A stretch of 64,000 nt of DNA from Aestuariispira insulae (GTDB lineage: Bacteria; Pseudomonadota; Alphaproteobacteria; UBA8366; Aestuariispiraceae): the NCBI RefSeq assembly GCF_003385955.1, contig NZ_QRDW01000001.1:434001-498000 (forward strand), given 5' to 3'. Below are positions 4,401-16,438 of the stretch, one piece after another (positions within the stretch are counted from its first letter, which is position 1; the number at the start of each line of letters is the position of its first letter). Both the position numbers and the translations under genes were made by a program. The notes below the pieces were generated by a model, which had not been told where the DNA came from, did no database searches, and was given only the letters and a program-made list of their open reading frames with translations.

Positions 4401-7400
4401 CTTGCTTCCTTCTCCCGGTGCCGAAGACTCACCATCCGGGAAAATATCAAAGATCTTCCGCAAGGCGCCCGGTGCCAGCGCAGACAGTGGATTGACCGTA
4501 ATTTCCGGCTTATCCATCGGGCCTGACACTTCGTAATTCGCTCCCAGAAAACCGCTATCCTCGCCCCCGGTCAACAACCATCCCACGACGGGGATGATGT
4601 TCAAGACACGGTTAATGGCATAGGCAGGGGCCACTGTCCCTTTTGCATCGATCCGATCTTCATCAAGATTATAGCTGCCCTTGATACTGATCCCGATAGA
4701 GGGGCTGAATGCCCGGGCCTTGGCAAAGGACAAAACAGCTTCATCAAGGGAATAATCGGCTTCAAACCGGGAAAAAGGCAGTCCCTTGTCTGTGAGGGAA
4801 GTCAATATTCCCGTCAAGGACATGAATTCCAGAACCTTCGCCATCACCGGCGCCTTGACCAACGTATATTCATCCATCTCGACATGTCCGACCAACGGTT
4901 CATCGGCGGATACTCTATGTCCGGTGACTTTCAGATTTCCGCCTTCAATACGATCAAACAGGTTCAAATTCCGGAAAGCCGTTCCTGCGTTATCCGCCGT
5001 TGCCAGCAACCGATAACCTCCGCCTTCCGGGCCATAGTCAATTTCCAATTCGGAAAGATCATCCAGTACCGAAGAGAGATGGAACCGCCGAACGTTTTGG
5101 CCGTCATGACGAATTTCCAGGCTCGAAGGACCAAGGCGGCGTTTGGGGATCGCCGTCAATTCTGTAAATGTGGCACGGATCGAAAACGGCGTGGATGCCT
5201 GTTGTTCTTCCGATAGTTTTTCAAGTTCCAATTCTCCCAGCGCCTGATCGATGATTCCTGTCAGATCAAATCTGTCCCCTTCCAGAACCACTTCGTAGGC
5301 CCCCTTTTCCGTCAAGGAGAGCTTGCCCGTGGTCCTGCCGCCATCAAGGACCATCTCCTTCATATCAACCGACTGGATTACCGACATATCCTCAGAGAGA
5401 ACCATGTCGAAATCCGTTTCCAGTGTTTCGTCTTTAAACCGTATCTTATTCAGTCGGACCGGCTGGCCATCTTCCAGCAGCATGATGAGGGAAAGGCTTG
5501 CCGGAAAAGTTCTCGGCTTCATCCAGTTCAGGGGGGCAATCACCATGCCTGAATCCGTTAAATCAGCATCCAGAAGCAGTTTTTGACTACCATCCCGGAA
5601 CTCCTGGCTAATCAGTTTGACCTGGGCCGGACCTTCAATAACCGGCGCAACCGTATGGCCGAATTTTTTCAACAGATGTTCATCCACCTGACCACTCGCC
5701 GTCAGCTCTTTACGCAGGGTCTCGTCATCGCCAAAGCGCTCTTTCCAAGTCACCCGAAGCGGCGTTTCCTCCAGGACCACATCACCGGCAATTTCAAAAC
5801 CGTCATTATCGACAGCCATCTCCAGATCCTGCCCTTGGACCGGTCTTCCCTGGAAGGCATCCTCCATTTTGAGATTTGTCAGTTTGGCGCTGGCTGTCAC
5901 ATTAATGCTCTTGGCCTCCAGGTCATTGATCAGAGGAAAAGCAAGCCTTACCGCGCCAACAGCATCTGCATTTACTGTTGCCGGATCAAAACCGATTCCG
6001 GAAACCAGCTTCAGCGGCTCGTGATCGACCAATTCCAGGGTCTCCCGGAAGGGGCCTTTAATCTGCAGGTTAATATCAATGGTTTCATCAACCCCGATCC
6101 CAAGGATATTGATCTTACCACCGGTTAGATGAAGATTGCCCACATGGCCTGTCGCGACATCAATATCAAATGTGCTTTCGTCAAAGACTGCCCGGCCGGA
6201 AACCCCGCGTGCAGGCGGCAACGGATTGAGATAATCCACCACCGAGTCCTGCATCAGAATTTCCCCTCCCATGCGGGTTAACTCAAAAGTCCCTTCGTCC
6301 CCCAGCAAACCCGCTATGGAAATGGTTGCCTCAGGCACAAAAGCTTCCGGAATATTGGGAACAACCCAGGCCCTGGCATCGCTGCCGAGATTTTCAGGCC
6401 AATATTTGTCCAGACTGGCAAAGTTGAAATCCGTCAATTTGCCATCCAGTTCCACCGAACGTCCGGTTTCTGTCTGGACGATATGGGCATTGGCGCTCAG
6501 CGCACCATCCGGCAGATCAATTTCGAGGGTTTCGAGCACGACGTGGCGGCCGGAATCTGAAATTGCCGCGCTCATTCGCAGAGCATCGAATTGCAGTGCT
6601 TCATGATAGAGACTGGGCACGGCAACCGTTCCGGGATCCATTGCCAGGGAGATACCGACATCCCCAAAGGTGACGTTTTGACTGTGACCATTGACGGAAA
6701 ACTCGATCTCAGCCGTTGCATCCGCCTTGGCCAGAATGTCAGCTTTTCGCAACTCTTCTGGCAGGTAGGCACCCCACAGTCCCAACTGAGCACCTTCCAA
6801 GGTCAACCCGGCACGATAATGCCGTTCGCCTGATCCTGACGGATCGCCTGAAACCTGGCCCAGCTTCACCGAAAGCCCCCCGGCTTCCGAAGAAACCAGC
6901 AAATTTGCAGCCCGTGGCCAGCCGTCCTCGCCGATATCAGCGTCGCCGCTTGTCACCAGTTTCGGTAACTCTGTGGATAGCAACGCCACATCAGGGAAAA
7001 AGCCGCTAAGGATAGCCGGATCCATATATGGACTGTCAAAAGTCACATGAAAAATGTCTTCTCCAAAATCCTTGGTCGCGATCAACGAGAGATCCACTGA
7101 AATGCCATCAAGCTGAAGCAATCCATCAAATTCAAGGGCAACTCCAAAGCCCGTGCGTTCGATATCAAGCTTGGCGATACTGGCATCCCATTTCCGCCCG
7201 GTCTTCTGGTCATCGATGGTCACCAGCGCATCGGCGAATGTGATGTGATTGAGATAACCGAACCGGCCCTGATCTTCTGCCGCACCAGCCGAGCTGAAAC
7301 CAGTCAGCAAATCCATCAACCCTTTTCCGTCATCAGCGGGCGCGACCTCCCCCTGGCCGACATCCATTACAATGCCCCAGTCGCCAAGATGATTTCTCTT

Positions 7401-7781
7401 CAAGGAGAATTTCGGGTGCAGGAATTCCAGCATGGTCGGCGCGATGGTACCCTCGCGCAGCGCCTTGAGAGAAAATCCGACGGAAATCTCGGGTAAAACC
7501 GCAACAGGTGCATGTCCTTTCTGGCGCGGGCTGATCATCACATCCTGGGCGACAATATCAACCGCACGGTCCCATCCGCCCCAGGTTAAAACAGTTGTAC
7601 CAACATCAAAGGTAAAAGGAGTGTCTTGAGAATTCAGCGCCTCTTCCAGGGAGGGCGTAATGAAATCCAGCTCCACAGGCCCGCTGGACAATTTCCAGAC
7701 CGCAGCGGCAATCAGAATGAACAGCCCGGCAAGAAGGCCGGCACAAACCTCGACAAAAAAACGTAAGGATCGGGCTGTCAC
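4386..7781 (-). CDS. AsmA-like / YhdP-family (DUF3971) envelope protein
   Basis: A very long protein (about 1131 residues) with one N-terminal membrane helix (FFVEVCAGLLAGLFILIAAAVW) and a large periplasmic, beta-strand-rich body. The C-terminal part, with VLNIIPVVGWLLTGG and GFLGANYEVSGPMDKP, matches the AsmA C-terminal region of YhdP-type proteins. Relatives (YhdP, TamB, YdbH) form bridge-like lipid channels between inner and outer membranes; that role is taken from the family. The frame can be opened at TTG 7805, but that codon has no Shine-Dalgarno, whereas GTG at 7781 has AAGGAAA upstream, so I use 7781. It is divergent from glnE and ends inside the shared terminator hairpin. Confidence 0.85.
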   Translation of the reverse strand: MTARSLRFFVEVCAGLLAGLFILIAAAVWKLSSGPVELDFITPSLEEALNSQDTPFTFDVGTTVLTWGGWDRAVDIVAQDVMISPRQKGHAPVAVLPEISVGFSLKALREGTIAPTMLEFLHPKFSLKRNHLGDWGIVMDVGQGEVAPADDGKGLMDLLTGFSSAGAAEDQGRFGYLNHITFADALVTIDDQKTGRKWDASIAKLDIERTGFGVALEFDGLLQLDGISVDLSLIATKDFGEDIFHVTFDSPYMDPAILSGFFPDVALLSTELPKLVTSGDADIGEDGWPRAANLLVSSEAGGLSVKLGQVSGDPSGSGERHYRAGLTLEGAQLGLWGAYLPEELRKADILAKADATAEIEFSVNGHSQNVTFGDVGISLAMDPGTVAVPSLYHEALQFDALRMSAAISDSGRHVVLETLEIDLPDGALSANAHIVQTETGRSVELDGKLTDFNFASLDKYWPENLGSDARAWVVPNIPEAFVPEATISIAGLLGDEGTFELTRMGGEILMQDSVVDYLNPLPPARGVSGRAVFDESTFDIDVATGHVGNLHLTGGKINILGIGVDETIDINLQIKGPFRETLELVDHEPLKLVSGIGFDPATVNADAVGAVRLAFPLINDLEAKSINVTASAKLTNLKMEDAFQGRPVQGQDLEMAVDNDGFEIAGDVVLEETPLRVTWKERFGDDETLRKELTASGQVDEHLLKKFGHTVAPVIEGPAQVKLISQEFRDGSQKLLLDADLTDSGMVIAPLNWMKPRTFPASLSLIMLLEDGQPVRLNKIRFKDETLETDFDMVLSEDMSVIQSVDMKEMVLDGGRTTGKLSLTEKGAYEVVLEGDRFDLTGIIDQALGELELEKLSEEQQASTPFSIRATFTELTAIPKRRLGPSSLEIRHDGQNVRRFHLSSVLDDLSELEIDYGPEGGGYRLLATADNAGTAFRNLNLFDRIEGGNLKVTGHRVSADEPLVGHVEMDEYTLVKAPVMAKVLEFMSLTGILTSLTDKGLPFSRFEADYSLDEAVLSFAKARAFSPSIGISIKGSYNLDEDRIDAKGTVAPAYAINRVLNIIPVVGWLLTGGEDSGFLGANYEVSGPMDKPEITVNPLSALAPGALRKIFDIFPDGESSAPGEGSKSGGN

Positions 7782-7810
7782 GTCTTTTCGGCTTTCCTTA
7801 ACCAAGCAAT

Positions 7811-7839
7811 TTGAACATCATACCGGGCAGCAGTATTTT
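7811..7839 (+). promoter_or_regulatory. Candidate sigma-70 promoter for glnE
   Basis: TTGAAC (7811-7816) and TATTTT (7834-7839) are separated by 17 bases and lie 28 bases before the glnE ATG, inside the divergent gap. Called on consensus and spacing only. Confidence 0.4.
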
Positions 7840-7866
7840 GGAGCCACAACCGTCCAAGACCCGATA

Positions 7867-10845
7867 ATGCAAGATTTTTTTTCGTCTTTCGCCACCTCCG
7901 CCCTGCCTGTTCCGTCAGACATGACCAGAGCCCGTATCGGGATGGAGCGCTTCCTGGAGGCAACCCAACCTGACGAGGCACTAAACCGCTTCGCCACTGA
8001 GTTTGCAAGTCACAATCAAGGCCAACTTCTTCTGGACGGTGTCTTTGGAAACAGCCCATTTCTGACCCAATGCATGATCCGGGAACCGGGGATCTTACTG
8101 AAACTGGTCGAAACCGGCCCAAACGCGTATCTTAAAGAGGTTTTAGACCAGGTTAAAGGCCTGCCCCAGCGTGAACTGGACGAAGCAGGATTGATGCGTG
8201 AATTGCGGATCGCCAAACGCCGGGTTGCCGTAACCACAGCATTGTGTGATCTCACGGGCATTTGGTCCCTGCCGCAGGTTACCGGCGCACTCAGTGACCT
8301 GGCGGATTTCTCATTGGACGCCTGCATTTCCCATGTGTTGCGTCGACTGCATGCAAGCGGGGAAATCACGCTGTCCCATCCGGATGATGCCTGCCGCGAT
8401 TCCGGTTTTGTCATCCTGGCCATGGGCAAACATGGATCCCGGGAATTAAACTATTCCTCCGACATTGATCTGATTGTGCTTTACGACCTGGCCCGATTAA
8501 ACCCAACCGACCCGGAGGCCATCCGGCAGTCCTGTGTCCGGGCGACCAGGGACATCATGCGACTGATGGAATCGCGCACCGCCGATGGCTATGTTTTCCG
8601 CACGGATCTCCGGCTCCGGCCGGATCCCGGCGCAACACCCTTGGCCATGTCGGTGGGCGCCGCGGAAACCTATTACGAGAGCCTGGGCCAGAATTGGGAG
8701 CGTGCTGCCATGATCAAGGCCCGCCCGGCGGCTGGTGACAAGGCGCTCGGCCAGGATTTCCTGGCCCATATCAAGCCCTTCATATGGCGCAAACACCTGG
8801 ATTTCGCTGCGATCAACGACATCCATTCCATCAAACGCCAGATCAATGCCCATCGGGGCAGCCGGCAAATCGCGGTGAATGAACATGATATCAAGATCGG
8901 CCGGGGCGGCATCCGGGAGATCGAGTTTTTCGCCCAGACCCAGCAATTGATCTGGGGTGGTCGGCTGCCCGCACTACGGCTGCGCCGCACCTGCGAGACC
9001 ATCGAGGCCCTCAACCAGGTCGGCCAAGTAAGTGACACCGCCCTCCGGGACATGGTCGCCTCCTATCATTATCTGCGAAAGCTGGAACACCGGCTGCAGA
9101 TGATTGATGATAAACAAACCCAGAAACTGCCCAAATCGGACGAGGATGTGGACAATATAGCCCGCTTCATGGGCTACCAAAGCCCGGAGGATTTCAGAAC
9201 AGATCTGCTGGAGCATCTGGGACGGGTCGAATCCCATTATGCCCGCCTGTTCGAGGATGAACCGGATCTGGGCGGCGGCGGTTCACTGGTCTTCACCGGC
9301 ATGGAAGATGATCCCGACACCGTTGTGACCCTGCAAAATATGGGTTTCAGGGAAGCCTCCAGGGTTTCCGGCATTATCCGGGCCTGGCATCACGGCCGGT
9401 ATCGTGCCACCCGAAGCGAGCGGGCCCGCCAGATCCTCACCGAGCTGATGCCCCAAATCCTGACCTCACTGGCCGACACCGCCAACCCGGATGAGGCATT
9501 TATCAACTTCGACACGTTCCTGTCAGGCCTCCCGGCCGGGGTCCAGCTTTTCTCGATGTTCAATGCCAATCCGAAACTGCTGAACCTGGTGGCCGAACTG
9601 ATGGGCAACGCACCACGACTTTCCAGACAGTTAGCCCGACGACCGGAATTGCTGGATTCCATGATCACACCGGGATTCCTCAAGGCTGAATTGTCGCCGG
9701 AGAACCTGAATCTGGCACTCGGCACCGTCTTGTCCGAAGCTGCAGATTATCAGGATGTGCTGGATGGCACGAGGCGCTGGTCAAACGACACAAAATTCAA
9801 GGTCGGTGTACAATTGCTGGATGGCACCCTCAATGGTGAAACCGTTGGTCCCATCCTCTCATCGCTAGCGGAAACACTCTTATGCCATTTGGTACCACGG
9901 GTGGAGCAGGAGTTCGCGGAAAGTCACGGAGTTATCCCCGGTGGCGGTCTGGCCATTATCGCCTTTGGAAAGCTGGGTGGTGGCGAGCTGTTGCCAGGTT
10001 CCGACCTGGATCTGGTCTATATCTATGATGGCGGTCAGGAGGAAGCTTCCGATGGCGAAAAAGCCCTAATGCCGACCGTCTATAACATCAGGCTCTGCCA
10101 GCGGATTGGTACGGCGGTCACCTCGCAGACAGGCGAAGGACGGCTTTACGACATTGATAACCGGCTAAGACCTGCAGGCAATGCCGGGGCGCTGGCCACC
10201 CAACTGCAGGGGTTCGAGAGCTATTATGATCTGGCCAATGGGGGCGATGCCTGGACATGGGAGCATATGGCACTGACCCGTGCGCGGGCAGTCTATGGTC
10301 CGGATCATCTCTGCCAACATCTACAAGACGCTATTCACCGGCTCCTGATCCAAAAAAGGGATGCTAACAGGATATTGATCGATGTTGCCGCCATGCGCGA
10401 GCGGATCGCACGCCAGTATCCCGGCAACAGCCTATGGAGCATCAAATATCAACCGGGCGGGCTGGTGGATATCGAATTCACCGCTCAAACCCTGCAATTG
10501 ATTCATGCCCATAAACATCCGGAGGTTCTGTCCCCCAACACCGCCCGGGCACTTGAAAAAATGCACAAGGCCGGCTTGATAAGCGCGGTTGATTTCAAGA
10601 GGCTTCGCGAGGCCTTGGGCCTGTGGCGGTGCCTGCAGGCTGTCCTGCGCCTGACCGTCGACAAAGATTTTGATGAGACCCGCGCGCCACTGGGTCAAAA
10701 ACAGGCATTGATGCGGGCTGCCAGGGCAGATAGTTTCAATCATCTGAAGGAGATGGTCCAAGAAACCGCTGACGCGGCACGCGAGGTTTTTGAACGCCTG
10801 ATCCTGTCACCCGCCGCCCAGGCGGCGGACGGACAAGAAGAATAA
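7867..10845 (+). CDS. glnE: Bifunctional glutamine synthetase adenylyltransferase / adenylyl-removing enzyme
   Basis: Controls glutamine synthetase by attaching and removing AMP in response to nitrogen signals passed by PII proteins. The 992-residue product has two nucleotidyltransferase domains. The N-terminal adenylyl-removing domain is marked by GKHGSRELNYSSDIDLI (about residue 190), and the C-terminal adenylylating domain by AFGKLGGGELLPGSDLDLV (about 700). Each is followed by a helical GlnD/PII-uridylyltransferase-like region. Length and order match the family. I start at ATG 7867 (MQDFFSSFAT), since the longer frame from 7660 would run through the start of the divergent AsmA-like gene. 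bcp follows 28 bases later on the same strand. Confidence 0.96.
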   Translation: MQDFFSSFATSALPVPSDMTRARIGMERFLEATQPDEALNRFATEFASHNQGQLLLDGVFGNSPFLTQCMIREPGILLKLVETGPNAYLKEVLDQVKGLPQRELDEAGLMRELRIAKRRVAVTTALCDLTGIWSLPQVTGALSDLADFSLDACISHVLRRLHASGEITLSHPDDACRDSGFVILAMGKHGSRELNYSSDIDLIVLYDLARLNPTDPEAIRQSCVRATRDIMRLMESRTADGYVFRTDLRLRPDPGATPLAMSVGAAETYYESLGQNWERAAMIKARPAAGDKALGQDFLAHIKPFIWRKHLDFAAINDIHSIKRQINAHRGSRQIAVNEHDIKIGRGGIREIEFFAQTQQLIWGGRLPALRLRRTCETIEALNQVGQVSDTALRDMVASYHYLRKLEHRLQMIDDKQTQKLPKSDEDVDNIARFMGYQSPEDFRTDLLEHLGRVESHYARLFEDEPDLGGGGSLVFTGMEDDPDTVVTLQNMGFREASRVSGIIRAWHHGRYRATRSERARQILTELMPQILTSLADTANPDEAFINFDTFLSGLPAGVQLFSMFNANPKLLNLVAELMGNAPRLSRQLARRPELLDSMITPGFLKAELSPENLNLALGTVLSEAADYQDVLDGTRRWSNDTKFKVGVQLLDGTLNGETVGPILSSLAETLLCHLVPRVEQEFAESHGVIPGGGLAIIAFGKLGGGELLPGSDLDLVYIYDGGQEEASDGEKALMPTVYNIRLCQRIGTAVTSQTGEGRLYDIDNRLRPAGNAGALATQLQGFESYYDLANGGDAWTWEHMALTRARAVYGPDHLCQHLQDAIHRLLIQKRDANRILIDVAAMRERIARQYPGNSLWSIKYQPGGLVDIEFTAQTLQLIHAHKHPEVLSPNTARALEKMHKAGLISAVDFKRLREALGLWRCLQAVLRLTVDKDFDETRAPLGQKQALMRAARADSFNHLKEMVQETADAAREVFERLILSPAAQAADGQEE

Positions 10846-10873
10846 CGTTTGATTGCATTTGGAGGATAGATAC

Positions 10874-11338
10874 GTGTCTTTGGAAACCGGCCAGGCCGCG
10901 CCTGATTTTACCATGAAAACCGACAGCGAGGGCGAAATCAGCCTCTCAGCGCTGAAAGGCAAACCGGTCGTGTTATACTTCTATCCCAAGGACGATACCC
11001 CGGGCTGTACCAAAGAGGCCTGCGGCTTTCGCGATTCCATGCCGGATTTTTCCGCCATCGATGCCGTCATTGTCGGTGTTTCCAAGGATACTGTTGCGAA
11101 ACATGATAAATTCAAGGCCAAATATGAACTGCCCTTCACCCTGGCCAGCGACGAAGACGGTAGCGTTTGCGAGGCCTATGGCACATGGGTGGAAAAAAAC
11201 ATGTATGGCCGGAAATATATGGGCATCGAACGGGCGACCTTCCTGATCGATGCTGAAGGCAAACTGGCCCGCATCTGGCGCAAGGTGAAGGTCAAAGGGC
11301 ATGTTGAAGACGTTCTTGAGGCCGTAAAGGCGCTATAA
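10874..11338 (+). CDS. bcp: Thioredoxin-dependent peroxiredoxin (BCP/PrxQ type)
   Basis: A 154-residue peroxiredoxin that reduces hydrogen peroxide and organic hydroperoxides. The motif FYPKDDTPGCTKEACGF holds the peroxidatic cysteine and a second cysteine five residues later, the PrxQ arrangement. The start is GTG at 10874, 8 bases after a clear GGAGG; the frame stays open to an ATG at 10853 that lacks a ribosome site. It follows glnE closely and is probably cotranscribed with it and the two genes downstream. Confidence 0.95.
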   Translation: MSLETGQAAPDFTMKTDSEGEISLSALKGKPVVLYFYPKDDTPGCTKEACGFRDSMPDFSAIDAVIVGVSKDTVAKHDKFKAKYELPFTLASDEDGSVCEAYGTWVEKNMYGRKYMGIERATFLIDAEGKLARIWRKVKVKGHVEDVLEAVKAL

Positions 11339-11375
11339 TCGACTTTGTACCCACGGGTTGAAAGGTAACCAGAAT

Positions 11376-12140
11376 ATGGCGATCGAAACATATGACGATC
11401 AAGTGGAAGCGGAATATCTCGAAGAAACCCGGGATGTCCTCTCTGAGATGGATGTAATCCTTGAACAGCTTGCCAACGGCTCCGAGGAAGGCCGCCGCCG
11501 GTTTGATGTCTTGATCGGCAAACTGCAGGCTCTTTGTGTCACCGGCCGCCATACCCGGCACGCCCTCTTGAATGTCACCATGCATCGTTTGATGAACTAT
11601 CTGGATGGTATCTCCAAACCCAGCAAAGAGCAGATGCAGGATGTGCAAATTTTCTCCGATACCATGACCGGTATCCTGGATGGGTCCATCCAGCATGATG
11701 GATGGGATTTCAGTGAGTTTGTCCGTTCCCTGCCCGTGCGCCGCCCCATGGATATCGAAGATCTGGAGCATCTGGATATCGAAGTAATGCTGGTGGAAGG
11801 CAAACGCAGTGCCGCGCGCCTGTTTGAGCGTGAGTTAAGGGCCTGTGGGTATCGCGTGACCTCTGTTCGTAATCCCCTGGAAGCCATCAGCCTGGCGGTG
11901 CGCATGCGGCCAGACTTGATCATCGCTTCAGCTGAACTGGACGATATCGGCGGAGTCGATCTTGGCTGTGCAATCGCCGCCATGCCCAGTACCAAAAACA
12001 TTCCCTTTGCAGTGCTTACCAGTTATGACCGCAATCACAAGGCGCTGGCCGATCTGCCTGAGAATGCAGCCGTGATGAACAAGGGCTCACGCTTTGGCGA
12101 GGATCTGGCGGACGTGCTGGAACAATTCAAGATCACATGA
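11376..12140 (+). CDS. Response-regulator-like protein with helical N-terminus and degenerate receiver domain
   Basis: A 254-residue soluble protein. Residues about 1-120 are alpha-helical and resemble an HPt-type bundle, but no HxxKG phosphotransfer motif is visible. Residues about 142-254 look like a CheY-type receiver (IEVMLVEGKRSAARLFEREL, then RPDLIIASAEL, then a Lys in MNKGS). In RPDLIIASAELDDIGG the position of the phosphorylated Asp is occupied by Ser, and the usual acidic pair near the start reads EG. It is therefore probably a pseudo-receiver that binds a partner rather than being phosphorylated. The start ATG 11376 has AAAGG upstream. Its stop overlaps the next start as ATGA, so it is coupled to the DUF455 gene. 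The signalling partner is unknown. Confidence 0.75.
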   Translation: MAIETYDDQVEAEYLEETRDVLSEMDVILEQLANGSEEGRRRFDVLIGKLQALCVTGRHTRHALLNVTMHRLMNYLDGISKPSKEQMQDVQIFSDTMTGILDGSIQHDGWDFSEFVRSLPVRRPMDIEDLEHLDIEVMLVEGKRSAARLFERELRACGYRVTSVRNPLEAISLAVRMRPDLIIASAELDDIGGVDLGCAIAAMPSTKNIPFAVLTSYDRNHKALADLPENAAVMNKGSRFGEDLADVLEQFKIT

Positions 12141-12928
12141 CACTTGTAAATGCGGCGCTGGAGGCCTTGGGAACGTCGGATGCCCGTGCCAAGGCCATGC
12201 GCAGTCGTGAGCTCGCAACAGAGTGGTTCAGCGGCAGGATTGCCGAGATTGGCTCCGCCCCCATTCCCGAGCGTCCCGCACGGCCTGAAGCCCCGATATT
12301 AATGCCCCCTGCGGATGTCCCAAAACGCAAGATAACCCGTGGCCTGCCGGGACGAATCGCGCTTTTACATGCGCTGTCCCATATCGAATTAAACGCTATC
12401 GACCTGGCCTGGGATATCGCGGCGCGTTTCACCCATGAAAAGCTGCCGAGGGAATTTTACGACGATTGGGTGAAAGTGGCCGATGACGAAGCCCGCCATT
12501 TCCTGATGCTGGATGACATCCTGCGCGAGATGGGGTCCCATTATGGTGCCCTGCCCGCCCATGACGGTTTGTGGGAAGCTGCCATGAAAACCGCCGATGA
12601 TCTGTTCGGGCGGTTGGCCATCGTTCCCCTGGTGCTCGAAGCCAGGGGCCTGGATGTCACCCCGGCCATGATAGAGAAACTGAAAAAGGCCGAGGATGAA
12701 ACCAGCGCCGCCGCCCTGCAGGTAATTCATGATGACGAGATCACCCATGTGGCGGCGGGAAAGCGATGGTTTGAATATCTATGCCAGCGGGACGGGCTGC
12801 CTGAAATTGAAACATGGCAGAATCTTGTACAGACCCTGTTCCGAGGCATTTTAAAACGCCCTTTCAACGTGGTCAGCCGGGAACGGGCCGGGTTCTCCGC
12901 TGCCTTTTATGACCCTATTGCGTCTTGA
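12137..12928 (+). CDS. DUF455 ferritin-like domain protein
   Basis: A 263-residue protein of the DUF455 (COG2833) family. A complete di-iron ligand set of ferritin-like carboxylate proteins can be read: Glu at about 84 (SHIELNA), Glu118/His121 (DDEARHF), Glu168 (VLEARGL) and Glu201/His204 (DDEITHV). This predicts a four-helix bundle with a di-iron centre that could act as an oxidase, hydroxylase or iron-handling protein. Its reaction is not established. The gene is translationally coupled to the pseudo-receiver protein by an ATGA overlap and lies after bcp, which suggests a redox or peroxide-related unit. It converges on the caspase-like pair with 6 bases between stops. Confidence 0.88.
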   Translation: MTLVNAALEALGTSDARAKAMRSRELATEWFSGRIAEIGSAPIPERPARPEAPILMPPADVPKRKITRGLPGRIALLHALSHIELNAIDLAWDIAARFTHEKLPREFYDDWVKVADDEARHFLMLDDILREMGSHYGALPAHDGLWEAAMKTADDLFGRLAIVPLVLEARGLDVTPAMIEKLKKAEDETSAAALQVIHDDEITHVAAGKRWFEYLCQRDGLPEIETWQNLVQTLFRGILKRPFNVVSRERAGFSAAFYDPIAS

Positions 12929-12934
12929 ATGCGC

Positions 12935-14623
12935 CTAAAAAGCGCGGCTACCAACCAGTTGAACCTGCTGATCACGGCCATAGTAGCGGCGGGCATAGTA
13001 GGTAACCGTCTGGTCCAGATAGGCCGATAATTCTGCAAAGGAAACCTTGCCGTCCGCGTTGCCAGTAGGCTTTTTATCTGCTTCGCCTGCCATCCCAAGC
13101 AGGAAGTATTTTGTAAAGAGACCATGGGACTTATCTTCCTCCCACGAGGCGATCTGCCGCCCGCTGCCGGCGGAAATCACCGTTAGCCCATCAGGGATTG
13201 AGACTGGTTTGGTCTTCATAAAGACCGGTGAGGCGTTTGAAATCACGCTGCCATCAGCGCTGGCACCGGAAAAACAGGCCTCCAACACGACCAAAACAGA
13301 CTTCGCCCGGACCTTGGACAGGTTGGCATAAAGATGATCCAGCCGATATCCGTTGAGATGCAGGGCGGCCGGGTCCGCATCCGACGGCACCAGATAGGCG
13401 GTGCCATCCTGGCCCGGCGCACCATGGCCTGCGAAATAAATCACGACCCGGGACTGTTTTGGGCGCACCCAGTTATAAAGCCGCCCCTTGTGATCACTGG
13501 GCGTGCCGAATACGGAAATAAATTCCGCCTGGGTCGCATCACGGAGATCAATCACATTGCCGGGCCGGATTCCCAAAGCCTGGATGGCGTAGCGTTTGAA
13601 CCCCTCCGCATCCGCATAGGCCGGGACCACATCGGGAATATCCTTGCCCGCATTGCTGTAATCCGCATTGCCGATGATAACCGCTATATCATCAGGATGC
13701 TCACCCCCTTTGGCAAAGGCCACATTCAGCGGCTGGCTGGGAAATTCCACCTTGCCCCCAACCCTGTTTCCGGCAACCGTTCTGGTGCCTTCAGGTGCCA
13801 AGGCAGAACTATAAACCCAACCAATGGGCTTGCCTTCCCGGGCGGCCTGCATCCAGCCATCAGGAAGGCTGCCGGTGATATCCACCAGTCCGCCCTGGCC
13901 AATCCGATCCAGTATCTTGGCGTTGGCATCAGGCAATGTCCGGATTAATGCTTCCCCGGCGACCACCCGGTATACAGCGTTTTCCCGGGTCAATTGCTGG
14001 CGCACATTAGCCATGAGCACCCGTTCCTGTTCCTTGGCCGCCAGATAGGCCGGAATATCACTGCGCAGATAGCGCAGAAATTCCACCAAATTGGCCTTGA
14101 GTGCACGCTCCGTCCCGGCCACAACCCTATCGGCACCGACAAAATATTCGCCAACGGTTGCAATGCCTTTGGTCACGATCTCCCGGTCAAACACCACTTC
14201 ACCCTCCGGATCAGTCAACCGGTAGCGCATGCCAAAATTGAGATCCATGTCATAGCCGTTGGAACTGTCGATCATTTCCACCAATTCTGCATCCAGCCGC
14301 AGCTTCCGGGATGCGCCAGGGGTAAAGATTCCGGACTGACGGACCGACTGTTCCACCGGCGTGGCGACATTGACATTCCAGCCATAGGAAAAGTCATTGA
14401 GCAGATTGTAATACATCCATGGTTCGCCCCAGCTGGTCGGAACCGAACGCTCGGGACTTGATACATCCACATGAATTATCCCGATATCCGCATCAATCAG
14501 GGGTGCCTGGACCGTCTGGCTGGTAATCTCAGGCGACTGTGCCACCGTCAATCCGCCGGTCTGGGGCACACAGCCTGCCACCAGCACAGCAAGTATCGCC
14601 ACGGCTGTTCCAAACTTCTTCAT
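12935..14623 (-). CDS. Caspase-fold (peptidase C14-like) lipoprotein with SH3-like domain
   Basis: A 562-residue exported protein. The N-terminus MKKFGTAVAILAVLVAGC is a lipoprotein signal with Cys18 as the lipidated residue. Residues about 40-195 form an unassigned N-terminal domain, and 217-277 look like a bacterial SH3-type fold (RTLPDANAKILDRIGQGG, DGWMQAAREGKPIGWV). Residues 310-510 are a caspase fold with the dyad His400 (YFAGHGAPG) and Cys450 (LEACFSGA). A C-terminal GNADGKVSFAEL resembles an EF-hand loop. It is the second gene of a coupled pair; its ATG overlaps the upstream stop by 4 bases. It should act on the periplasmic side of a membrane. The substrate is unknown. Confidence 0.85.
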   Translation of the reverse strand: MKKFGTAVAILAVLVAGCVPQTGGLTVAQSPEITSQTVQAPLIDADIGIIHVDVSSPERSVPTSWGEPWMYYNLLNDFSYGWNVNVATPVEQSVRQSGIFTPGASRKLRLDAELVEMIDSSNGYDMDLNFGMRYRLTDPEGEVVFDREIVTKGIATVGEYFVGADRVVAGTERALKANLVEFLRYLRSDIPAYLAAKEQERVLMANVRQQLTRENAVYRVVAGEALIRTLPDANAKILDRIGQGGLVDITGSLPDGWMQAAREGKPIGWVYSSALAPEGTRTVAGNRVGGKVEFPSQPLNVAFAKGGEHPDDIAVIIGNADYSNAGKDIPDVVPAYADAEGFKRYAIQALGIRPGNVIDLRDATQAEFISVFGTPSDHKGRLYNWVRPKQSRVVIYFAGHGAPGQDGTAYLVPSDADPAALHLNGYRLDHLYANLSKVRAKSVLVVLEACFSGASADGSVISNASPVFMKTKPVSIPDGLTVISAGSGRQIASWEEDKSHGLFTKYFLLGMAGEADKKPTGNADGKVSFAELSAYLDQTVTYYARRYYGRDQQVQLVGSRAF

Positions 14624-16356
14624 GATCCCGCCTCCACAATCTGGGCCTGCTGGTCGCGCCCATAATAGCGGCGGGCAAAATAAGTCAGCGTTTGTTGGAG
14701 ATAACGGTCCAACTCGTCATAAGTGACCCGGCCATTGGCATTACCATGGGGCGGTTTATCCGCCTCCCCCGACATGCCTTTGAGGAAATAAGTGGTAAAC
14801 AGGGAATGCTGGCGATCCTGATCCCAGGAGGCCATCTGATTGCTACCGCCCGCCGCGATCACCGACAGCCCTTTGGGAATACTCACCTGTTTGACATTCA
14901 AAAAGACCGGGGAGGCATTATTGATGACGGCACCGCCTTCCGCGCTACCTGAAAAACACGCTTCCAAAACCACGGTCACCGAACGCGCCCGGCTTTTCGA
15001 GAGATTTCTATAGAGATTGCTGAGCCGATAGCCGTTCAAATGCAGGGTTGATGGATTGGCATCGGTCGGCACCAGATAGGCACTGCCGTCACTGCCCGGC
15101 GCCCCATGGCCGGCATAATAGACATAGACCCGCGACACGCCCGGCTTCACCCAGTTATAGAGCCTGGCCCGGTGATCCTGATCCGTGCCAAACACAGAAA
15201 TCAAGTCCGCCTGGGTCGCATCCTTAAGCTCGATGATATTGCCGGGCCGCACACCCAGGGCCTGGGTCGCATAGAGCCGGAAACCAGCGGCATCCGCATA
15301 GGCCGGTTCGACCGCCGGTATGTCCCGGCCCGCCCTGGCATAATCCGCATTGGCAATGATCACCGCAATATCGTCAGGACGGGAAGGTACGGCGGAAAAC
15401 CGAACATCGACAGGATTTTGGGGAAAACGCCTGGCTATGGCGACCGCCTGCTGGCTTTCCATCGCAAGGGCCGAGCCATGGACCCAGCCAAAGGGTTTTC
15501 CTTCCCGCGCCACCTGCATCCAGCCATCGGGAAGCTGTCCCAGTATATGTAAAAGCCCGCCTTGCGCCACCCGGTCACGAGCATCGGATTCAACATTTGG
15601 AAACTGGCGAATAATCGCCTCCCCTGCCTTGACTCGGAAGGTGCCGTTCATCAGCTCCATTTCGTGGCCCATCCGCTGTTCCAGTTCCTTGGCCGCAATC
15701 TGTTTCATCAGGGGCGCATCGACCTTGAAACCAAGGGACTGACCCAGCGCGGCAAGGTTCAGCGGCGCTGTCTTGAGCGTGCCGCCCTCCAGATGCTCCA
15801 AAAAGGCCGGCTGCTTCAACATGTCGCGTGATGCGATCACCAGTGCTTTGACATAGGCGTCTTCCAGGGTCATTTCCTGTCCGATCATGCTACCTGCCAC
15901 CAGACTCCGGCCCTGGGCCGAACCGATTAGTGTGCCATCCGGTTCAAAATAGCGAATTGTGGCAGTAACATTGAAAGTCAGCCAGAATGTGTCGATCTGG
16001 CTCGAACCGGTCACAACGAAGATCATCTGTGGCTCATGGGACAAGGCGTCACGTTCCACATTGGCAAAAATCCGGCCCAGGACTTTTTCACCTGCATTGC
16101 TGATCGCGCGACCTTCACGCAGGGGCACCTGGGTACCCTGAAAATTCTGGATGGTGATCGTCTTTGAACGGTTTCTCTCATCGGGCATCATCAGCAAGAG
16201 CGCCTGAGCCTGCAACGGCAGGTTTGGAACCTTGTCGCTGCTGAAATCCACCTGCTGGACATTGGTGGCAACTGTCTGACAGCCCAACAGCCCCCCGGAA
16301 ACGCAAAGCAGGATCAAACAGGAACGGAAAAACGAAACAAACGCGGAAAAGGACAT
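14620..16356 (-). CDS. Caspase-fold lipoprotein, paralogue of the downstream gene
   Basis: A 578-residue exported lipoprotein (lipobox LLGC, Cys26). Residues about 40-195 form an N-terminal domain that I cannot match to that of its neighbour. Residues 238-297 are an SH3-like segment, and 327-530 a caspase fold with His417 (YYAGHGAPG) and Cys467 (LEACFSGS). A final GNANGRVTYDEL loop recalls an EF-hand. The two proteins are clearly similar from the SH3-like segment to the C-terminus, which indicates a tandem duplication, while the N-terminal halves have diverged or been swapped. I start at ATG 16356, which has GGAGGT just upstream; an extension to 16383 is less likely. It is the first gene of the coupled pair and follows an EamA transporter gene on the same strand with an 82-base gap. 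Confidence 0.85.
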   Translation of the reverse strand: MSFSAFVSFFRSCLILLCVSGGLLGCQTVATNVQQVDFSSDKVPNLPLQAQALLLMMPDERNRSKTITIQNFQGTQVPLREGRAISNAGEKVLGRIFANVERDALSHEPQMIFVVTGSSQIDTFWLTFNVTATIRYFEPDGTLIGSAQGRSLVAGSMIGQEMTLEDAYVKALVIASRDMLKQPAFLEHLEGGTLKTAPLNLAALGQSLGFKVDAPLMKQIAAKELEQRMGHEMELMNGTFRVKAGEAIIRQFPNVESDARDRVAQGGLLHILGQLPDGWMQVAREGKPFGWVHGSALAMESQQAVAIARRFPQNPVDVRFSAVPSRPDDIAVIIANADYARAGRDIPAVEPAYADAAGFRLYATQALGVRPGNIIELKDATQADLISVFGTDQDHRARLYNWVKPGVSRVYVYYAGHGAPGSDGSAYLVPTDANPSTLHLNGYRLSNLYRNLSKSRARSVTVVLEACFSGSAEGGAVINNASPVFLNVKQVSIPKGLSVIAAGGSNQMASWDQDRQHSLFTTYFLKGMSGEADKPPHGNANGRVTYDELDRYLQQTLTYFARRYYGRDQQAQIVEAGS

Positions 16357-16438
16357 GATGTACCTCCATCCCGGCCAAGCCATGCCGGTGGAAAGCGAAT
16401 TCCTTTATTTTAACGCCAAGCTGTTAACATTTCGCAAA

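Follow-up and report, generated by a model that had tools for sequence, protein, structure and literature searches.

Here we describe two neighboring genes, A and B, on the minus strand of a 64,000-nucleotide stretch of the Aestuariispira insulae genome (contig NZ_QRDW01000001.1, positions 434,001 to 498,000; hereafter the window). Their features suggest that they are duplicates of one another, translated in a coupled manner, and encode caspase-type cysteine proteases that are anchored in the envelope, cut after Arg or Lys and take part in one shared envelope process, a reading on which our confidence is evenly balanced. We infer its components, namely protease activity, Arg/Lys specificity, membrane, envelope role and interaction between A and B. 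The wider family to which the two genes belong is more interesting than the pair itself; as judged from its sequences, it is a family of one constant caspase domain with an exchangeable N-terminal front.

Architecture of the Paired Caspase Lipoproteins

The gene boundaries and the 4-base overlap (ATGA, 14620–14623) proposed in the first-pass annotation proved correct (Table 1), and GGAGG sites back both starts. For B, an alternative upstream start is possible in the open frame at 16383, and the start at 16356 is favored because a GGAGG precedes its ATG by 6 bases. Both products also carry, as described there, the features of exported lipoproteins: a signal peptide and a lipobox ending in Cys, recognized by pattern match and no trained predictor. 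In Escherichia coli, an Asp after the lipid-carrying Cys decides the membrane to which a lipoprotein is sorted. Since that residue is not Asp in either A or B, both are expected at the outer membrane, hanging into the periplasm.

Peptidase_C14 (PF00656) exceeded its curated cut-off of 21.4 bits in both proteins (A 35.8 bits, E = 8.7e-9; B 31.2 bits, E = 2.3e-7), and the catalytic dyads reported earlier are indeed intact, with His400/Cys450 in A and His417/Cys467 in B lying within GHG and EACFSG motifs. The SH3-like segments scored below the SH3_3 cut-off, and the N-terminal ~180 residues of both proteins had no Pfam match. Sequence searches of the PDB returned a weak SH3-like match (9ovi) and otherwise chance matches only.

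Predicted Caspase Fold and Specificity

AlphaFold2 predicted most of A 308–559 at a predicted local distance difference test (pLDDT) score above 90, and B was also predicted as a caspase fold. In each model the dyad is intact, contrary to the missing active-site pocket that the first-pass annotation had considered. For both models the best matches among solved structures were metacaspase 4, caspase-8, caspase-9, caspase-11 and MALT1 (Z about 20–21), with Z about 19–21 and root-mean-square deviations of 2.2–3.9 over 192–212 residues among the matches listed and sequence identities to MALT1 and metacaspase 4 of only ~14–19%. The A model also matched a bacterial entry, 3bij (Z 20.3). Foldseek likewise returned MALT1 and metacaspase 4 among its best matches, and both models align with caspase-8 along its whole length. 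MALT1 and the plant metacaspase 4, the best fold matches, are eukaryotic and differ in their accessory domains.

We then compared caspase domains across the family, using 32 of 34 homologue stretches in the structure alignments (L082, which is truncated, and L077 were left out, and X-containing stretches had been skipped earlier). In A numbering, the catalytic position 400 is His in 34 of 34 aligned domains and position 450 is Cys in 32 and Ser in two. Four further positions are nearly invariant: 338 (Asp, 34/34), 448 (Glu in 31, Asp in three), 494 (Trp, 34/34) and 495 (Glu or Asp, 32/34). In MALT1, a review assigns the P1-Arg pocket to Asp365 of helix 1, Asp462 of loop L4, and Glu500 with an aromatic residue of loop L5 (PMC4357240). 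Positions 338, 448, 494 and 495 look equivalent to Asp365, Asp462 and the acidic and aromatic residues of loop L5. We take MALT1 Asp462 to lie two residues before the catalytic Cys. Because these MALT1-like acidic and aromatic positions are conserved, cleavage after Arg or Lys is predicted.

Origin of the Pair

The first-pass annotation held that A and B are alike from the SH3-like part to the end and differ at their N-termini, and both statements stand. BLASTP aligned A165–557 with B187–574 at 58% identity, divided into 69% for the caspase domain and 59% for the SH3 part, while the N-termini showed no similarity beyond chance (score 43 against a shuffled mean of 41, with 75 of 200 shuffles as high). 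The family comprises 57 genes, excluding repeats (L075, L076, L078, L087) and genes with E >1e-60 to the family profile; a maximum-likelihood tree was built from 53 of them, with L073 (twice), L082 and L092 omitted for Ns or truncation. In this tree A and B are sisters (support 99/94), and their nearest neighbors are L019 (another gene of the same genome), L054 and L057. This placement implies that the lineage itself duplicated the gene, the simplest route being a tandem duplication. The duplication with different N-termini envisaged earlier is therefore borne out by the sister relationship and by the apparently captured front of A (see below); the proposed swap of domains is one option only, with no sequence link between the two N-termini.

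Conservation of the exact pair, which the first-pass annotation made a test of its reading, is rejected: A and B together were not found in any other searched genome, none of which was of the same genus; the class-level scan behind this negative was capped at three scored candidates from each genome, and the named-genome scan may omit records very near the window’s genome.

Caspase Genes Next to Caspase Genes

What did survive of the pairing idea is that members of the family are often neighbored by another caspase gene. Caspase-domain patterns, run against named genomes, gave 33 loci, chosen regardless of neighbors, of which one was too short and 32 were usable. Nine of these 32 loci have another caspase-fold gene no more than 300 bases away, on the same strand in eight (the L057 partner is on the opposite strand) and with a 4-base overlap in three (L055, L063 and L074); anywhere in the examined stretch, such a gene occurs at 16 of 32. 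Two of the three profiles that detected partners had been seeded with partner genes already seen, which biases detection toward them, so the partners were re-checked with Pfam. Seven of nine passed PF00656 (L055, L074, L057, L058, L063, L066 and L078). The L076 partner, which is the same gene as the L027 partner, had only a sub-cut-off NCBIfam caspase match (2.7e-12), and the L085 partner, cut by a contig end, had no Pfam match at 0.001 and reads as a truncated family member.

The other eight partners scored far below family members on the family profile, were grouped as another subfamily (by the self-seeded profiles) and retain GHG and DxC motifs, and so are not fresh duplicates. For nine of 32 loci the binomial tail is 8e-12 if 20 further caspase genes are assumed in every 4500 genes and 4e-17 if 5 are, to be read as an order of magnitude since the background is assumed and the loci are not independent (several per genome; L076 and L078 are sister rows). 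The L055 and L063 partners are 75% identical to one another, and the caspase lipoproteins that they accompany are 42% identical.

Several of these loci are of interest in themselves. At L074, from the metagenome-assembled genome BS150m-G3, a PDZ-PDZ-caspase gene (7227–8789) overlaps a caspase-TolB fusion (8786–11215) by 4 bases; the TolB part of the latter is above the TIGR02800 cut-off, and a separate TolB is found elsewhere in that genome. In the caspase lipoproteins of L027 (2458–3840) and L031 (8149–9774), Ser replaces the catalytic Cys, and each gene adjoins one for a caspase of a different subfamily with GHG and DSCF; L027/L076 and L031/L078 are sister lineages. Five caspase-fold genes of two subfamilies lie within 9 kb at L063 (2092–10978, on a contig shared with L087), one of them with SH3_3 and FGE-sulfatase above cut-off. 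At L058 (2–2065), the gene for a caspase plus FGE-sulfatase protein precedes that of a Sel1-caspase lipoprotein by 36 bases. L023 (7630–10232), in G001, a genome of the same taxonomic family, holds a separate and independent pair of sister caspase lipoproteins (tree support 100/99); their genes are 86 bases apart and their N-termini alike by eye.

A Patchy Family with Shuffled Modules

The window’s own genome holds six family genes, comprising the A and B pair and four singles (all but one of them recovered by a Pfam search). At E <1e-20, relatives are patchily distributed, occurring in nine of 39 genomes in one set and in 15 of 385 genomes of the class, each count including the genome itself. 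The catalytic His and Cys are kept in 54 of the 57 family genes; in the remainder Cys is replaced by Ser (L027 and L031) or Phe (L082, at a contig end).

N-terminal fronts vary widely. They include a DegP-type PDZ pair (L074), Sel1 repeats (L058, L061), TPR (L072) and a lectin-like front (L019) with PA-IL just under cut-off, along with further unnamed N-termini; the L063 gene at 7443–8816 is 49% identical to L019 along its length. At L059 (6501–8828) and L060 (6204–8816), PDZ and an S41 protease of the C-terminal-processing type are fused to a C-terminal caspase, giving two protease domains per chain. A caspase gene adjoins one for a TPR plus trypsin-like protease at L062 (1932–5776), L070 (4469–8804) and L073 (758–5511), as identified by Pfam for the first two and by resemblance for L073, and a DUF4384 protein is a further neighbor at L062. 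L077 comes from a metagenome bin titled Bordetella parapertussis; its caspase gene groups with a Burkholderiales bin (100/100), and the species label is doubtful.

Apparently Recruited and Orphan N-Termini

The N-terminus of A is related to a stand-alone lipoprotein of a genome from the same family (28% identity, z 11.5 over shuffles). A two-row profile found this lipoprotein in 17 of 289 alphaproteobacterial genomes, including the window’s own and the seed genome. Among the 21 places listed, 18 were open frames of 172–260 residues, and the remaining three comprised two longer frames (333 and 424 residues) and that of A (593). Ten of 19 loci had the right frame read; in the resulting alignment, some of whose starts and ends were trimmed by eye, nine stand-alone lipoproteins line up with A from the signal peptide through the end of the domain. 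Members of this alphaproteobacterial lipoprotein family are found at L096/L103, L106, L107, L112–L115, L117 and L120. Scans of stand-alone lipoproteins (seven plus five) gave no Pfam or NCBIfam name, with matches far below cut-off (e.g., LptE, 0.039). Because the A N-terminus is homologous to stand-alone lipoproteins with the signal peptide included, it looks captured, and the simplest reading of the sequences is that A is a fusion of an entire small lipoprotein with an SH3-caspase protein.

The N-terminus of B, by contrast with A, matched nothing in profile and pairwise comparisons that covered A, B and the other groups, and appears to be an orphan with no convincing relative. Among 38 genomes of relatives, the A N-terminus had one weak match and that of B none; among 289 genomes, B gave hits in three, namely itself and two weak traces (E 0.002, with two internal stops, and 0.003). 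The possibility that the N-terminal domains are ordinary modules is realized in part for A, with its stand-alone lipoprotein family.

In the AlphaFold2 models, which are of low to middling confidence here (pLDDT <50 for A residues 1–105), the A N-terminus has strands at 108–121, 125–137 and 143–156 and a helix from 165, and that of B a helix at 82–96, strands at 105–117, 124–137 and 143–156, and a helix at 164–180. These similarly placed elements are at most a hint of one common fold, because both AlphaFold2 inputs aligned the two N-termini to each other, which may make the models alike. In whole-model fold searches, the caspase domain filled the match lists.

Genomic Context

Upstream of B, likewise on the minus strand, lies a gene for an EamA transporter; a convergent DUF455 gene is 6 bases from the end of A. 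At 11373–12928 of the window, the DUF455 gene and a gene whose product has a response-regulator receiver domain in the C-terminal half share 4 bases and are oriented toward the caspase pair. A Pfam scan of five flanking genes revealed no mobile, defense, toxin or lysis gene. We considered and rejected a recent arrival of A and B on a mobile element: their GC contents (0.563 and 0.567) are near that of the window (0.556), and the five scanned neighbors are chromosomal genes of other kinds. Scans for promoters and terminators at the locus gave chance-level results only.

Table 1. Positions in the window of genes A and B and of their parts.
Feature	Position	Strand	Remarks
Gene A	12935..14623	minus	562-residue predicted lipoprotein, caspase domain C-terminal
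A caspase domain, residues 308–559	12947..13702	minus	Pfam, predicted structure, fold search
A catalytic Cys450 codon	13274..13276	minus	
A catalytic His400 codon	13424..13426	minus	
A SH3-like segment, residues 227–275	13799..13945	minus	SH3_3 18.4 bits, cut-off 27; weak PDB 9ovi match
A N-terminal lipoprotein domain, ~residues 19–190	14054..14569	minus	Homologous to stand-alone lipoproteins; predicted strands 108–121, 125–137, 143–156
A signal peptide to lipobox Cys18 (LVAG-C18)	14570..14623	minus	Pattern only
ATGA overlap, 4 bases	14620..14623	minus	B stop / A start
Gene B	14620..16356	minus	578-residue predicted lipoprotein, caspase domain C-terminal; upstream partner of A
B caspase domain, ~residues 325–576	14629..15384	minus	Pfam, predicted structure, fold search
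GGAGG, likely A ribosome-binding site	14631..14635	minus	Within B 3' end, 7 bases before A ATG
B catalytic Cys467 codon	14956..14958	minus	
B catalytic His417 codon	15106..15108	minus	
B SH3-like segment, residues 247–297	15466..15618	minus	SH3_3 22.4 bits, cut-off 27
B N-terminal domain, ~residues 27–200	15757..16278	minus	No convincing relative; predicted secondary structure
B signal peptide to lipobox Cys26 (LLG-C26)	16279..16356	minus	Pattern only
GGAGG, likely B ribosome-binding site	16363..16367	minus	6 bases before ATG at 16356

Relation to Described Caspase Homologues

The first-pass annotation stated that no known pathway explains the pair, which holds; its caspase domains, however, fall within an already known group (peptidase C14, orthocaspases). 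A 2012 survey places 237 of 508 prokaryotic caspase homologues in 217 predicted operons, 20 of which contain more than one metacaspase, with Alphaproteobacteria among the groups concerned (PMC3501461). A 2019 survey lists 3,075 alphaproteobacterial orthocaspases and 582 alphaproteobacterial homologues without the dyad, and describes trypsin-like and DUF4384 parts in one dyad-less clade (PMC6426788), a combination that also occurs as neighboring genes at L062. By the two surveys (PMC3501461; PMC6426788), A and B share with orthocaspases and C14 the predicted caspase fold, the His/Cys dyad, several copies per genome, varied extra domains and abundance in Alphaproteobacteria; acidic residues that, judged by position, may favor Arg or Lys at P1 would be a further likeness. 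Unlike in orthocaspases, the caspase domain of A and B forms the C-terminal end of a lipoprotein and is preceded by an N-terminal module and an SH3-like segment, and loci related to them add DegP-type PDZ, PDZ-S41 and a coupled caspase-TolB. They also differ from multi-metacaspase operons, in that the exported branch is adjacent to a second caspase at nine of 32 loci, mostly across subfamilies (three of the nine cases with a 4-base overlap), while A and B themselves are sisters that differ in their N-termini. A literature search found no description of an exported, lipid-anchored, paired caspase branch, which is weak evidence as most subscription journals were outside its coverage. The caspase kind is thus already described, as are operons with several caspases, but the lipid-anchored, domain-swapping branch appears, on this weak evidence, to be new.

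A Putative Role in the Envelope and Its Alternatives

An envelope role is proposed because of the lipid anchor, the SH3-like segment, and the DegP-type PDZ, S41 and TolB fusions or neighbors of relatives. A and B would be exported, lipid-modified and anchored in the outer membrane, facing the periplasm, where the caspase domain would cut after Arg or Lys, as in metacaspases and paracaspases. The N-terminal module and SH3-like segment may place the protease or sense a trigger in the envelope, and the cleavage would be regulated, in envelope quality control or remodeling, as opposed to general degradation. Made together, the two proteins would act in a common process, perhaps by forming a mixed dimer or with one activating the other.

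Several observations weigh against this interpretation. The SH3_3 scores of A (18.4 bits) and B (22.4 bits) lie under the Pfam cut-off of 27, the A model has low confidence (pLDDT 41–44) in the loop that follows the catalytic Cys, and the equivalence to the MALT1 S1 pocket is positional, drawn from where the residues stand with regard to helix 1 and the catalytic Cys rather than from structures aligned residue by residue. The window’s neighbors (EamA transporter, DUF455, response regulator) offer no envelope-stress context. The pair was not seen elsewhere, so co-selection of A and B is unsupported. Furthermore, 23 of 32 loci have no second caspase within 300 bases (short contigs hide some neighbors), and four of the six family genes in the own genome have none among the two nearest frames on each side, suggesting that family members can work singly. 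A less favored alternative is that A and B are redundant tandem duplicates whose N-termini drifted or were exchanged, with each working alone and adjacency a relic. The sister relationship within one lineage, the failure to find the pair in the other genomes searched, the loci without a caspase neighbor, which form the majority, and the separate L023 sister pair, which indicates that tandem duplication recurs in the family, all fit such an origin. On the other side, pairs from different subfamilies recur with 4-base overlaps (L055, L063, L074) and cannot be fresh tandem duplicates, and A and B have kept the dyad and the family-invariant residues at 69% identity.

Other functions appear improbable to differing degrees. 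Cell-death executioners, killing from the periplasm when activated by damage, are unlikely: the caspase fold and intact dyads are compatible with such a role, and programmed cell death is among those proposed for prokaryotic caspase homologues in the 2012 survey (PMC3501461), but several copies per genome and fusions to DegP-type PDZ and S41 fit maintenance better, and no toxin or lysis partner was present among the flanking genes scanned. It is somewhat more doubtful still that the caspase domains are non-proteolytic scaffolds or that one member of a pair is a regulatory pseudo-enzyme. The Ser-for-Cys genes L027 and L031 directly adjoin a caspase with GHG and DSCF, and pseudo-orthocaspases are common in Alphaproteobacteria according to the 2019 survey (PMC6426788); however, both dyad residues are retained in A and B, as in nearly all family genes, and the Ser of L027 and L031 is probably one event, since the two are sister rows in the tree. 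Least probable of all, in our view, is an anti-phage or conflict system of the EACC1-caspase or a similar kind. EACC1-caspase is described as a two-gene, membrane-associated system (PMC7159879), so a two-gene organization is common to both, and the EACC1-associated caspase model NF047832 is the closest curated NCBIfam caspase model and the only NCBIfam match for A and B (E 9e-18 and 1.7e-20). Their scores of 64.5 and 73.5 bits nevertheless fall well short of its cut-off of 140, and, unlike the EACC1 system, A and B are exported with the caspase domain C-terminal; an EamA transporter gene and no EACC1 gene lies immediately 5' of the pair (the rest of the genome was not searched for EACC1). The PADLOC caspase matches reached only E 0.002 and 0.00033, one scan limited to close relatives found no viral relative, and no mobile or defense gene was among the five flanking genes.

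Beyond the shared envelope process proposed for A and B, we speculate, with low confidence, that the family forms a periplasmic caspase cascade of paired exported caspases, of one subfamily or of two, that adjacent or overlapping genes would produce jointly, and in which one member would carry an envelope sensor (PDZ, lipoprotein, SH3-like or TolB) and the other would be its target or mixed-dimer partner. If so, many alphaproteobacteria would translate damage to the envelope into proteolytic signaling that takes place outside the cytoplasm; A and B would then represent the sister-gene version of such a cascade, and pairs of Cys-to-Ser and intact caspases the version of pseudo-enzyme and enzyme.

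Caspase homologues of free-living bacteria are often discussed as agents of cell death. A branch that is lipid-anchored, linked to DegP-type PDZ, S41 and TolB parts and often paired with a further caspase would shift some of that discussion toward quality control of envelope proteins.

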